A stretch of 64,000 nt of DNA from Capsulimonadaceae bacterium. Its GTDB lineage: Bacteria; Armatimonadota; Armatimonadia; Armatimonadales; Capsulimonadaceae. The position numbers and the translations under genes were made by a program. Below are positions 24,311 to 42,233 of this stretch, in pieces. The DNA is taken from the NCBI GenBank assembly GCA_031292625.1, contig JARLGU010000012.1:124001-188000 (forward strand), written 5' to 3'. Numbering within the stretch: the first letter of the stretch is position 1; every line of letters starts with the position of its first letter. The notes beneath the pieces are model-generated. The model was given only the letters and a program-made list of their open reading frames with translations, searched no databases and was not told the DNA's origin.

Positions 24311-24401
<91 letters not shown>

Positions 24402-24434
24402 CTGAGGCTGCCGATGACGCTGACGTCGGGCGTT

Positions 24435-24510
24435 TGGTGGGGCTGGAGGGAATCGAACCCCCGACACGCCGCTTAGGACGCGGCTGCTCTATCCCCTGAG
24501 CTACAACCCC
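24435..24510 (-). tRNA. tRNA-Arg (anticodon CCT)
   Basis: The 76-nt minus-strand gene has acceptor stem GGGGTTG/CAGCCCC, D-stem GCTC/GAGC, anticodon stem GCCGC/GCGGC with loop GTCCTAA (anticodon CCT, reading AGG), T-loop TTCGATT and encoded CCA. Confidence 0.95.
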
Positions 24511-37492: not shown

Positions 37493-39544
37493 ATGATCAC
37501 GAAGACCGCGGGAGTGCTGGCGCTGATTTGCCTCGCGTTCGGCGCAAGCCTTGTCTGGGCGAGCGATCCTGATAGCCCGGTAATCGCGTCCGTCGGCATA
37601 TCCACGATCACCTATGCCCAGGCGAACATTGTTCCGCCGGTCTCCCCCGGAACGCCAACCGCTTCGGCAAGCAGCGACGATCAAGCTCGCTTGAAACGAC
37701 TGATCCTCAAGGATGTGACCGAAAACGTCCGCCAGGAGATCGGCGTTGGCGTAACCGACGACGATCTCAAGCAGATCGCCGTAGCGGAGACCAGTAGCCT
37801 TGGCGATCTCGACTGGGCCGTGCGGCAGATGCACGATCACGCCGATCAGCTCGATGCCTGCCTTCGCGGCGCGCGCGCCGTATACGACAGCGGCGACAAA
37901 CCAGACGGCGCGTTCGATAAGTACGTCAAAGGGAAAGCGCCTCGTGCGCTCTGGGATACGGTGCTTCCGGCCGCGAAATCGCAAGCTCAGCGTGATGTTT
38001 ACATCAAGCAGATCGCAGACGAGCGGAGCGTGACCGTCGACCAGTTGCGCGATCCCCAAAAGTACCGGCCGCTCGCGATGATGCGCAATACGATGCTTGC
38101 GGTTGTGCGAAGGATTGGTCGGAAGAATGCGGCGGCTCGCGCATTTGCGGATTCGATCAAGCCTCCGACCGGTATCGACGATGTATTGCCGGTCATGCCG
38201 CGGGATGTGCAAAAGGCCTACGACGCCTGGTGGCGCAACCAATATCGAAGCGCCGGTATTGAGATCGCGGACCGCCGGTTTATCGGTTTGTATGGCGAAC
38301 TCGGTTTGCCGGCGCCGCCCGTAAAGAGTGCGCCGCCCTTGCCTGCCAACGTTCCCTCTGCCGCGCCGGTTCATCCGGCGACGCCGGCGGCGTCATCTCC
38401 TCCGGCCCCCGCGCCGGTTCGTCCCGCGACGCCTGTCGCGGCGTCTCCTCCGGCCCCCGCGCCGGCTCATCCCGCGACGCCTGTCGCGGCGTCTCCTCCG
38501 GTCCCCGCGCCGGTTCGTCCCGCGACACCGGTTGCGGCGTCTCCTCCGGCCCCCGCGCCGGCTCATCCCGCGACGCCTGTCGCGGCGTCGCCGCCGGCCC
38601 CCGCGCCGGTTCGTCCCGCAACACCGGCGGCGTCATCGCCTCCGATCCCCGCGCCGGTTCATCCTGCGACACCGGTCGCGTCGCCGTCCATAACGGCCGT
38701 TAAGCCGGCTACTGGCGCTCCAGATGCCTCGGGAGCGACGATGGCGACGATTCGGAGCGAGGGTGCAACGCCTGCGCTCCCGGCAGCGCCGCTTGCGAAG
38801 AGCCACACGGATTCGCAGCCCTCGTTGCCAGCCGCTGGGCAGACCGTGCAACCCGTCGCAAATCGCGTTGCGTCCTCCGACGCAGCTCCCGTTGGCGCAT
38901 CGGACCGGCGGGCGCCGAGCGCCAAGGTTGAGTTTCGCTGGTTGCAGCCGGTTCAGTCATCGCTAAATCCTCGAGCCCGCTATCGATTGATTTCGGGATT
39001 GGAAGGCGGATCCCCGGTCTTTTCGTTTCACGACAACCGGACGGGCCAGACCTTCCGCGATGGCGCAGCGATCCGCGCGGAGTTCCTCGGCATCGTGTCG
39101 CATTCCTCCCGGGGCGGTCGCCGGTTCGTTGTGCCGGCGCAACTCATCGCTGGAACCGGTCTTCACCCGGCGCTGCTTCTCGACGAGGGGCGGCGTGCGA
39201 AGGTCGTCGCTTTGGCCGCGGAGATGCGTCAATATCTTGGCCTGCTGGACGCGTCGCCGACGATTGATGGCGCCGCCGATATCTCGGGCGCGGAGGCTCG
39301 CTCCGATCCGGGCGTCAAAGGGGCCTTCGTCGATCTATTTCTGCAAAGCGACGGCTGCGTCAAGCTCGAGGCCTTTTCTGGGCGACACGCGGGCGCGATA
39401 CTAGCCGTGATCGTGGACGATAAGATCGTGACGGCCTCGCCGATTACCGACCAGATTACGGGATACCAGGTTGAGCTTGCGAGAACCTTTGAAAGCCTCG
39501 ATCAAGCGCGCAACCTCGCGGCCCAGATCAATGGAACGCACTAG
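37493..39544 (+). CDS. Exported protein with Pro/Ala repeat linker and SecD P1-like C-terminus
   Basis: The 683-residue protein has a signal peptide (GVLALICLAFGASLVWA). Residues about 30-270 form a helical domain beginning VIASVGISTITYAQAN, faintly like a SurA-type chaperone N-domain. Residues about 285-400 are a low-complexity linker of PAPVRPATPVAASPP-type units. The last 190 residues end VKLEAFSGRHAGAILAVIVDDKIVTASPI then ITGYQVELARTFESLDQARNLAAQIN. This closely resembles the SecD first periplasmic (P1 head) domain around its RLAIVLDGKVISAPVI...ITGxFTxEEAxxLA stretch, but without SecD membrane helices. A role in late export or folding is inference. Confidence 0.6.
   Translation: MITKTAGVLALICLAFGASLVWASDPDSPVIASVGISTITYAQANIVPPVSPGTPTASASSDDQARLKRLILKDVTENVRQEIGVGVTDDDLKQIAVAETSSLGDLDWAVRQMHDHADQLDACLRGARAVYDSGDKPDGAFDKYVKGKAPRALWDTVLPAAKSQAQRDVYIKQIADERSVTVDQLRDPQKYRPLAMMRNTMLAVVRRIGRKNAAARAFADSIKPPTGIDDVLPVMPRDVQKAYDAWWRNQYRSAGIEIADRRFIGLYGELGLPAPPVKSAPPLPANVPSAAPVHPATPAASSPPAPAPVRPATPVAASPPAPAPAHPATPVAASPPVPAPVRPATPVAASPPAPAPAHPATPVAASPPAPAPVRPATPAASSPPIPAPVHPATPVASPSITAVKPATGAPDASGATMATIRSEGATPALPAAPLAKSHTDSQPSLPAAGQTVQPVANRVASSDAAPVGASDRRAPSAKVEFRWLQPVQSSLNPRARYRLISGLEGGSPVFSFHDNRTGQTFRDGAAIRAEFLGIVSHSSRGGRRFVVPAQLIAGTGLHPALLLDEGRRAKVVALAAEMRQYLGLLDASPTIDGAADISGAEARSDPGVKGAFVDLFLQSDGCVKLEAFSGRHAGAILAVIVDDKIVTASPITDQITGYQVELARTFESLDQARNLAAQINGTH
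38370..38690 (+). repeat. Tandem Pro/Ala-coding repeats
   Basis: Units of about 60 bp encoding PVAASPPAPAPxxPAT are repeated about five times in the gene at 37493-39544, forming a flexible linker. GC-rich and prone to length change. Confidence 0.75.
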
Positions 39545-39641: not shown

Positions 39642-40961
39642 CTACAGGACGGTCTGCGCGACATTTCCGAACGCGGCTTGCCATCGATGCCAGAAGTCGG
39701 GGAAGGTTTTGGCGACGCAACCCGGGTCGTTGATGGTCATCGACGGAAGGCGCAATGTTGCGACTGCAAAGGACATCGCCATGCGGTGATCGTCGTAGGT
39801 ATCGATCGCCGCGGTGTACGGCGACTTTGGCGGAGTTATTGTCAGCGAGTCAGGGCCTGCCACGATTTCCGCCCCCAACTTGCGCATTTCCGTCGCGAGC
39901 GCCTCGATCCGGTCAGTTTCCTTGACTCGAAGAGTTCCAAGGCCCCTCAGTCTCGAGACGCCGTTTGCGAACAGCGCGAGAACGGCCACGGTTTGTGCGG
40001 TGTCGGGGATTGATTCGAGGTCGATATCGACGGCATGAAGCGTATCTGGACCGGTTACGACGGTCGTGCTCTGGCCCTGCATGACGGCGCAGCCCATCTC
40101 TTCGAGCACGCGCACGAATGTCGCGTCTCCTTGGGCCGACGAAGAGCCGAGGCCGCTTACGGTCACTCTCCCACCGGTAAGCGCGGCGGCGGCGAGAAAG
40201 TAAGTTGCGTTAGACGCATCGGGCTCGATCGCGTAGTCCCGCGCGATGTAATGGAGCCGGCCCGGAACCGCGAATTTCTGGTATTCCTCGTGGCCAATTG
40301 CGACGCCGAAGGCGGTCATGACGGCATCGGTCAAGTCGACGTAGGGTTTGGACACGAGCGAGCCTTCGACCACGATATGCGTGTCGGACGTCGCGAGGGG
40401 CGCTGCCATTAAGAGGGCGCTCAGATATTGGCTGCTGATCGTGCCGTGGACCGAGCAGCGGCCGCCGCGCAGTCCTCCGCCGGCAACGCGAACGGGAGGG
40501 CAGCCGCCGTCGCCAAGGCATCGAACGTCGACGCCAAGTTGGGTCATTGCCTCAACGAGGTCGGCGATGGGACGCTGGCGCATACGTTCATTGCCATCGA
40601 GAATCACGTTCGAACCTGCCGGTGTAAACGGGGCTGCGGTCGTCAGAAAGCGGATTGTCGTTCCTGAGTTGCCTGCGAACAATGGGCCCTGGGGGGCGCT
40701 GTAGCGTCCGCCGGTTCCGTGAACCGTGAGTGTTTCCCCGTCCTTTTCGATGGACACGCCGAGCGCGCCGAGACATTCGATCATGCGCCGCGTATCGTCG
40801 GCATCGAGCGCGCCGCTGAGGATCGACCGGCCGCCCGCCAGACTGGCGATCAGCAGTGCGCGGTTCGTAATGCTCTTGGACCCTGGCAGCGTCACCGTCG
40901 CGTGGGCTGCGTTGCGCAGCGGCGTGAACGTCATCGCGGGTGGATAGGTAAAATTTCCCAT
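39642..40961 (-). CDS. aroA: 3-phosphoshikimate 1-carboxyvinyltransferase (EPSP synthase)
   Basis: The 439-residue enzyme joins shikimate 3-phosphate and phosphoenolpyruvate in aromatic amino-acid synthesis. Clear motifs are LPGSKSITNRALLIASLAGG near the N-terminus, LFAGNSGTTIRFL, DGNERMRQRPI, HGTISSQYLSALLMAAPLA, LRVKETDRIEALATEMRKLGAEI and TYDDHRMAMSFAVA, all AroA hallmarks. Its length is normal. The GNSGT variant in place of GNAGT is worth noting. The start is ATG at 40961. No other aro genes are adjacent. It converges with the gene at 37493 and leaves a 97-bp gap. Confidence 0.96.
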   Translation of the reverse strand: MGNFTYPPAMTFTPLRNAAHATVTLPGSKSITNRALLIASLAGGRSILSGALDADDTRRMIECLGALGVSIEKDGETLTVHGTGGRYSAPQGPLFAGNSGTTIRFLTTAAPFTPAGSNVILDGNERMRQRPIADLVEAMTQLGVDVRCLGDGGCPPVRVAGGGLRGGRCSVHGTISSQYLSALLMAAPLATSDTHIVVEGSLVSKPYVDLTDAVMTAFGVAIGHEEYQKFAVPGRLHYIARDYAIEPDASNATYFLAAAALTGGRVTVSGLGSSSAQGDATFVRVLEEMGCAVMQGQSTTVVTGPDTLHAVDIDLESIPDTAQTVAVLALFANGVSRLRGLGTLRVKETDRIEALATEMRKLGAEIVAGPDSLTITPPKSPYTAAIDTYDDHRMAMSFAVATLRLPSMTINDPGCVAKTFPDFWHRWQAAFGNVAQTVL

Positions 40962-41309
40962 GCCGTATTATAGCCTTTTCCGGCGCTTGCCTGCGCCGCG
41001 TGCATTTCCCTGCGCGATCTTGTTTTCTCGGTCGTTCATCCGCATCCTGGCTAGGTTTACGGCAGAGGAAACAGATTGTTCGTTTGCTCCAGGCCATGCG
41101 CGGCCGGGCGGCGCACTCCGCTCGCTTGGCTTTACGGTGCACGCTCCCTACGTTGTACCTGACCAATTCGCCCGCATACTTGACAGGCGGGACCGTTTTC
41201 GAGAATAATGAAAAGGAGATTAGTCTACGAGCGGAGGTTCGGCCCTTAAGATGGCGGAGCCCGCGCCTAGATTCGTCATTCACCCATGTCAATGTCGATA
41301 ATATATAGC

Positions 41310-41590
41310 CACAAACAGGGAAATGGAGAGCCGGTGCGCATCGGTTCGCGGAGGGATCTTCGCCAGGGCGCGCACTGGGTCGCGATGGAGCGTCCCGCCG
41401 GGGGCGCCGCTCGTCGCCGTCACGCCCTTTTCCATTACCAGCACCACCAGTGTTGCCTGCCGGAGCTTCAAGTTGGGAGAGTTCTGTCCACTCCCCGGCT
41501 TGTCGTGAAGGAAGGAGTGGCTAGCCCCGCGTTGACGAGTGTTCTGCTTGCATGAGCGAACCGGTGTCGAGCGGGGCTTGTTTTTTTGTC
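41310..41590 (+). ncRNA. Candidate structured RNA of about 280 nt with intrinsic terminator
   Basis: The 5' arm CATCGGTTCGC (41339-41349) pairs over 11 bp, with one G-U pair, with GCGAACCGGTG (41556-41566). An outer pairing GAGCC/GGCTT joins 41328-41332 to 41575-41579. Inside are hairpins such as CCACTCC/GGAGTGG (41489-41495 with 41515-41521). The 3' end is AGCCCCGC/GCGGGGCT followed by TTGTTTTTTTG. A GATAAT -10-like box sits at 41297-41302. I found no RNase P, tmRNA, SRP or known riboswitch core motifs. It could be an independent RNA or a leader of the HNH gene. Confidence 0.45.
41523..41589 (+). terminator. Intrinsic terminator with long loop
   Basis: AGCCCCGC (41523-41530) pairs with GCGGGGCT (41571-41578), directly followed by TGTTTTTTTG. 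It competes with the long-range pairing of the candidate RNA and lies 87 bp before the HNH start. Confidence 0.6.
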
Positions 41591-41675
41591 GTGGGCGAGG
41601 AGGAGAGCATTATCGAGTGAGGCTGTCCGATCCGGGCGTGTCGCCTGGCGGGCAGAGGGAGAAGGACGATCCGTA

Positions 41676-42233
41676 ATGAACCAAGAGGTGCTAGTACTCA
41701 ACAGTGACTTCGAGCCGTTGAACGTGTGTAACCTGCGGCGTGCGGTGGTGCTCGTCTACATGGGTAAGGCGGACATTTTGCATACCGACGAGCATGCATC
41801 GCCGATGCAACTCGCCGATGGGAGCGTCGCCGCGCCGTCGGTCGTCAAGCTGCGCTATCATGTGCGCCGCCCTTTGCCGGAACTTAAGCTCTCTCGACGC
41901 TCTATCTTTGCCCGGGACAACTACACGTGCCAGTATTGCGGTCATCAGTCGCGGGATCTGACTATCGATCACATTCTCCCGAAGCGTCACGGCGGCGACA
42001 TGCGGTGGGACAACCTCGTTGCCTGTTGCCGCAAGTGCAATACGAAAAAGGGCGACAAGCTGCTCTCGCAGACCGGCATGAAGCTGATGCGCCCTCCGCG
42101 ACGCCCTCGCTACGTGCCGTACATCGCGCTCACTAAGTACGTCAACGGCACCAAGAACGACATCTGGCGCAACTATTTGCCGACGTTTACGGATGTCGGG
42201 GGATACCACGTTATCGAACAGATGGCGGTGTAG
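41676..42233 (+). CDS. HNH endonuclease family protein
   Basis: This 185-residue stand-alone HNH protein begins MNQEVLVLNSDFEPLNVCNLRRAVVLVYMGKADIL, the usual start of a widely conserved family. The nuclease core is FARDNYTCQYCGHQSRDLTIDHILPKRHGGDMRWDNLVACCRKCNTKKGD, with two CxxC zinc pairs (CQYC, CRKC) and the DH...N...K catalytic pattern. It probably cuts or nicks DNA, with a housekeeping role unknown. It starts at the ATG at 41676 with GGGAGAAGGA upstream. The long gene-free stretch with a structured RNA just before it is notable. Confidence 0.88.
   Translation: MNQEVLVLNSDFEPLNVCNLRRAVVLVYMGKADILHTDEHASPMQLADGSVAAPSVVKLRYHVRRPLPELKLSRRSIFARDNYTCQYCGHQSRDLTIDHILPKRHGGDMRWDNLVACCRKCNTKKGDKLLSQTGMKLMRPPRRPRYVPYIALTKYVNGTKNDIWRNYLPTFTDVGGYHVIEQMAV

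Follow-up and report, generated by a model that had tools for sequence, protein, structure and literature searches.

Organization of the HNH locus

The window, by which we mean the whole stretch of 64,000 nucleotides analysed here, carries an aroA gene on the minus strand (start 40961) followed by a gene encoding an HNH endonuclease (start 41676). The gap of 714 bp that an earlier note on this DNA had placed between genes was found at 40962-41675. According to that note, the gap contained a candidate novel structured RNA upstream of the HNH gene, with pairing ends, a -10 box on one side and a GC stem followed by a T-run on the other. The stem and its T-run, which ends near 41587, were recovered as an intrinsic terminator. 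The -10 box exists as well, being the GATAAT of a candidate promoter (P2), but a second candidate upstream of it (P1) scores better (Table 1). The gap also contains a short open reading frame (ORF), overlooked in the earlier note, whose stop codon sits between both arms of the terminator. Two start codons are possible for this leader ORF, ATG 41286 and GTG 41334, and the latter has to be the start if P2 is the promoter in use.

Table 1. Coordinates of the features upstream of the HNH gene, in positions of the window
Feature	Position	Strand	Remarks
Candidate leader promoter P1, TTGACA-18-AATAAT	41180..41209	+	11/12 consensus matches
Weaker candidate promoter P2, TCGTCA-18-GATAAT	41273..41302	+	9/12 consensus matches; contains the -10 box of the earlier note
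Leader ORF, 89 codons from ATG 41286	41286..41555	+	stop TGA 41553-41555
Leader ORF, alternative start GTG 41334, 73 codons		+	GGAGAG at 41325-41330 just before
His-rich core of the leader peptide, RRRHALFHYQHHQCC	41412..41456	+	alignment to RHRHALYHVRLHRH-type cores of relatives
Intrinsic terminator	41523..41587	+	arms AGCCCCGC 41523-41530 and GCGGGGCT 41571-41578, then T-run
11-bp helix of the earlier note, 5' strand CATCGGTTCGC	41339..41349	+	partner 41556-41566
11-bp helix of the earlier note, 3' strand GCGAACCGGTG	41556..41566	+	in the loop of the terminator, adjoining the leader stop codon
HNH endonuclease gene, 185 aa	41676..42233	+	Pfam HNH_5 2e-15; presumed controlled gene

The HNH protein is encoded as a single copy in 55 of the 61 genomes searched around that of the window. 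A scan of named genomes yielded about 60 HNH loci mostly labelled Armatimonadota and 18 others, nearly all from Chloroflexota; all data presented here are computational, and many of the genomes are metagenome assemblies. Matches of the protein in PADLOC, in PHROGs and among solved structures mostly cover the HNH domain alone. The best PHROGs match spans nearly the whole protein, and its name is merely HNH endonuclease. An IscB/OMEGA guide system was considered and rejected, in agreement with the earlier note: the protein possesses an HNH domain only and reaches 67 bits against an IscB cut-off of 175.

A cassette of promoter, leader ORF and terminator precedes most Armatimonadota HNH genes

Most of the sampled Armatimonadota genomes present the same order, with a promoter, a short ORF of about 40-90 codons, an intrinsic terminator and then the HNH gene. 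The terminator lies at most 170 nt from the HNH start at 51 of the 60 Armatimonadota loci. The same holds for 2 of the 18 HNH genes from elsewhere and for 21 of 225 further long ORFs, taken from the same DNA as controls. Promoters scoring at least 11/12 were predicted before the terminator at 32 of 55 loci (1.1% of shuffles). Between terminator and HNH gene, no candidate promoter scoring 9 or more was predicted in any of the 55 spacers, and this spacer measures 45 nt or less at 23 of the 55 loci. To judge from the sequences, transcription of the HNH gene most likely proceeds by read-through of the terminator. The sequences place the predicted start of this transcript at a promoter about 180-400 nt upstream of HNH.

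Three loci belonging to one genus (L065, L066 and L069) keep the terminator before HNH and have no recognisable His-rich leader ORF. Several loci outside this genus are likewise devoid of a recognisable His-rich leader.

The leader peptide is under selection

Pooled between close relatives, the pN/pS ratio of the leader ORF is 0.33 in frame versus 1.26 and 1.23 in the shifted frames, in pairs some of which share a member and none of which includes the window, so that they are non-independent and provide no formal test of the window's own copy. On this codon-level evidence, the leader ORF is judged to be under selection at the protein level, and hence translated. Within the last 35 codons of the leaders, histidine accounts for 10.9% of residues in frame versus 0.9% and 2.1% when read out of frame, and 25 of 41 leaders have at least four histidines in this stretch. 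Both histidine codons and several leucine codons are used, and the constraint therefore acts on the peptide.

A loose motif, approximately L-R-x-x-x-D-[SG]-x-x-H-x-H-x-x-H-H, was found repeatedly across families, with weak conservation from one family to another. Conservation of the leader is limited to a short stretch near the end of the ORF, which is rich in His and Cys there, and the remainder is unalignable. Only in this frame does the window's peptide, ARRRHALFHYQHHQCC, resemble the RHRHALYHVRLHRH of its relatives (leaders of L008, L035 and L036); the similarity scores are 51, 51 and 48, and among 300 shuffles 0, 0 and about 1 scored as well. Searching 41 genomes with a peptide profile returned as best matches largely the HNH leaders themselves, the others being weak; the profile misses the window's own copy and is too short to exclude copies elsewhere. 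A Pfam and NCBIfam search of the leader peptides gave nothing above chance.

The end of the leader ORF interlocks with the terminator

In each of the 34 measured leaders, the stop codon falls between -12 and +30 nt relative to the beginning of the terminator stem, a statistic that is not blind since the leader frames were picked partly by motif. Ordinary genes of the same loci have their stop at a median of -24 nt from the stem, with at most 15 of 69 in the -12 to +30 range. The distance from motif to terminator (58.9 nt, sd 7.0) is less variable than that from motif to stop codon (60.1 nt, sd 11.5; p 0.01) when families other than the window's own are compared. It amounts to about 46-75 nt in most lineages and the window's copy lies farther away, at 120 nt.

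The stretch separating motif and terminator folds better than its shuffles (mean z -1.05, p 8e-5). Its pairing with the 5' arm of the terminator is no stronger than in shuffles, with a mean z of +0.18 over 31 leaders. At four loci (L052, L055, L060 and L061), an 8-nt leader stretch, CGGACACG, is perfectly complementary to the loop region of the terminator, CGTGTCCG. This pairing is a possible antiterminator specific to that lineage.

Some leader ORFs extend further. At eight loci of the Fimbriimonadia (L077, L080, L082, L083, L085, L087, L088 and L089), the ORF continues past the terminator, its end lying close to the HNH start. The peptide differs at these loci: its core, about 100-200 nt before HNH, reads W-x-D-T-I-I-R or a variation on it. 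Most of the Fimbriimonadia sequences keep or re-form a small RNA hairpin around GACACG-ATAATA-CGTGTC (mean z -2.7), and the core often has two consecutive ATA codons within this hairpin. The terminator is also read through by the ORFs of L047, L062, L064, L084 and L086.

A model of translation-coupled attenuation

We consider it likely that the 5' leader of the HNH mRNA is a translation-coupled transcription attenuator comparable to that of pyrBI. A ribosome translating close behind the RNA polymerase would cover the 5' arm of the terminator, or run through the terminator altogether, thereby blocking the hairpin and allowing HNH to be transcribed. Should the ribosome lag, halt at the His-rich motif or fail to translate, the terminator would form, and transcription would stop near 41587 and leave a short leader RNA.

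The proposed working of this architecture follows from what is established for Escherichia coli, where ribosomes repress terminators lying just behind stop codons. A terminator placed a few bp past the stop codon is almost fully repressed there and becomes fully active again beyond about 30 bp (PMC4824070). Preventing termination at pyrL needs tight coupling across pyrL, and a stall motif before the pyrL terminator raises termination in cells lacking EF-P (PMC5021804).

For the HNH leader we infer the coupling itself, the sign of the regulation and the signal read by the motif, sign and signal being the least certain parts of the model. With the opposite sign, a ribosome that stalls right where the ORF ends would switch HNH on, as on speFL, where ornithine stalls ribosomes just upstream of the stop codon and Rho binding is affected (PMC7815308). 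Candidate signals could be the supply of histidyl-tRNA, a ligand of the nascent chain or general translation stress.

A broader interpretation is offered here tentatively and is somewhat doubtful. The leader might act throughout the phylum as a nascent-peptide sensor coupling the production of a DNA nuclease to the state of the ribosome, with two peptides and an overlapping terminator. The His-rich peptide, or the WTDTIIR-type peptide in Fimbriimonadia, would then answer some signal by stalling or releasing the ribosome at a fixed distance from the terminator.

Alternative functions of the leader ORF

Protein-level selection would also be expected if the ORF encoded a small functional protein, acting as a partner, an inhibitor or an antitoxin of the nuclease, with a leaky terminator setting the ratio of the two products. 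The His/Cys-rich end of the ORF could then bind metal. However, the conserved region is short and confined to the vicinity of the ORF end with the rest unalignable, the position of the motif follows the terminator and not the stop codon, the Fimbriimonadia use a different peptide, and an overlap of stop codon and terminator is uncommon among ordinary genes. We regard a small functional protein as unlikely.

A classical attenuation mechanism appears quite improbable. It supposes that histidine scarcity stalls ribosomes at His codons, frees an antiterminator and turns HNH on, which agrees with the histidine count of the 25 leaders mentioned above and with the better-than-shuffled folding between motif and terminator. 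Antiterminator pairing does not exceed chance, however, whether sought against the 5' arm (mean z +0.18) or as complementarity between leader and terminator (mean z -0.42). Moreover, amino-acid attenuators keep terminator and leader ORF more than 20 bp apart (PMC4824070) whereas the two overlap here, and histidine synthesis is not known to involve HNH.

RNA structure in the gap

Even a permissive search with Rfam covariance models over 40950-41750 gave no match at E values up to 5, in line with the absence of known RNA cores noted earlier by eye. The region has a fold-energy z of -2.69, with 3 of 200 shuffles equally good, and its minimum-energy fold includes the terminator and excludes the closing helix that had been reported. 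The two 11-mers of that helix do exist, but 4 of 150 shuffles also contain an 11-bp long-range helix with no more than one G-U, which is marginal, and no conservation of the pairing was found. Across 53 loci, complementarity between leader and terminator is no general feature (mean z as given above), the p value for the window being 0.09. Given the modest z, the recurrence of the helix in shuffles and a complementarity that relatives do not share, the structural claim is weak apart from the terminator.

At the DNA level, a similarity search of 60 relatives returned two short matches only, neither located upstream of HNH and both judged by eye to be protein-coding DNA. The conserved parts proved to be the promoter, the leader peptide and the terminator, and no conservation of the long-range helix was found. 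The RNA hairpins that stand are the terminator and often one preceding it, and not the pairing of the ends.

A free-standing structured non-coding RNA, as originally proposed, is accordingly very improbable. The fold energy speaks for it, and a terminated transcript of about 280-370 nt is likely under either reading; yet the leader is translated in relatives as estimated by pN/pS, Rfam offers no match and the long-range helix showed no conservation. The earlier interpretation is partly supported: the part of it that survives is a conserved cis-acting transcribed element without Rfam match, tied to the HNH gene. This element is a translated leader ending within a terminator and not a new non-coding RNA. 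More generally, structured-RNA candidates in GC-rich gaps need a codon-level selection test first.

Finally, GC-rich DNA commonly has short ORFs, but a chance juxtaposition of an unrelated ORF with the terminator of an upstream transcript is scarcely credible in view of terminators enriched at HNH only, promoters at the same place in relatives and codon-level selection.

Comparison with known systems

The attenuator favoured here finds its closest likeness in E. coli pyrBI. There, the leader ORF (pyrL) reaches into the intrinsic terminator that directly precedes the gene, or crosses it (PMC4824070, PMC5021804). As in pyrBI, the downstream gene appears to need read-through, to judge from the 55 spacers and their lack of promoters scoring 9 or more. 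The two differ in the gene concerned, since pyrBI comprises pyrimidine genes governed by UTP-dependent pausing and the HNH nuclease gene has no known link to UTP. They also differ in the leader peptide, which in the HNH case is itself conserved and His-rich.

With the his, trp and leu leaders, the HNH leader has in common a terminator preceded by a short peptide that favours one amino acid. Unlike them, its terminator overlaps the stop codon, an antiterminator is unsupported and the gene is not biosynthetic. The arrest peptides TnaC and SpeFL provide another parallel, as leader peptides governing transcription into the next gene. They differ from the HNH leader in their link to Rho, through which TnaC acts. 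On speFL, Rho binding is affected (PMC7815308); the HNH leader has an intrinsic terminator and a variable spacing from motif to stop codon.

IscB/OMEGA (HEARO) RNAs are similarly encoded beside an HNH nuclease gene. In the present case, the RNA would be the translated leader of HNH's own transcript and is without Rfam match. Judged from the shared transcript and the predicted read-through, the link between leader and HNH gene is regulatory and not that of an IscB/OMEGA-like guide.

Most known leader peptides belong to genes concerned with amino acids, pyrimidines, polyamines or antibiotic resistance. No earlier description of an element such as the HNH leader was found in the literature (open-licence papers). 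The little-studied phylum Armatimonadota appears to put a DNA nuclease under translational control, by means of a peptide motif whose distance to an overlapping terminator varies fairly little. If correct, the model would provide a handle on when these bacteria produce the nuclease, and hence on its purpose. It would also add one peptide motif to the candidates for ribosome stalling.

Other features of the window

On the plus strand, positions 37493-39544 hold an ORF of 683 aa that contains a long repeat rich in Pro and Ala (APVRPATPVAASPP-like) and has a very high local GC content of 74%. Two closely spaced tRNA genes on the minus strand (24315-24510) are the sole Rfam matches of the window at curated threshold.
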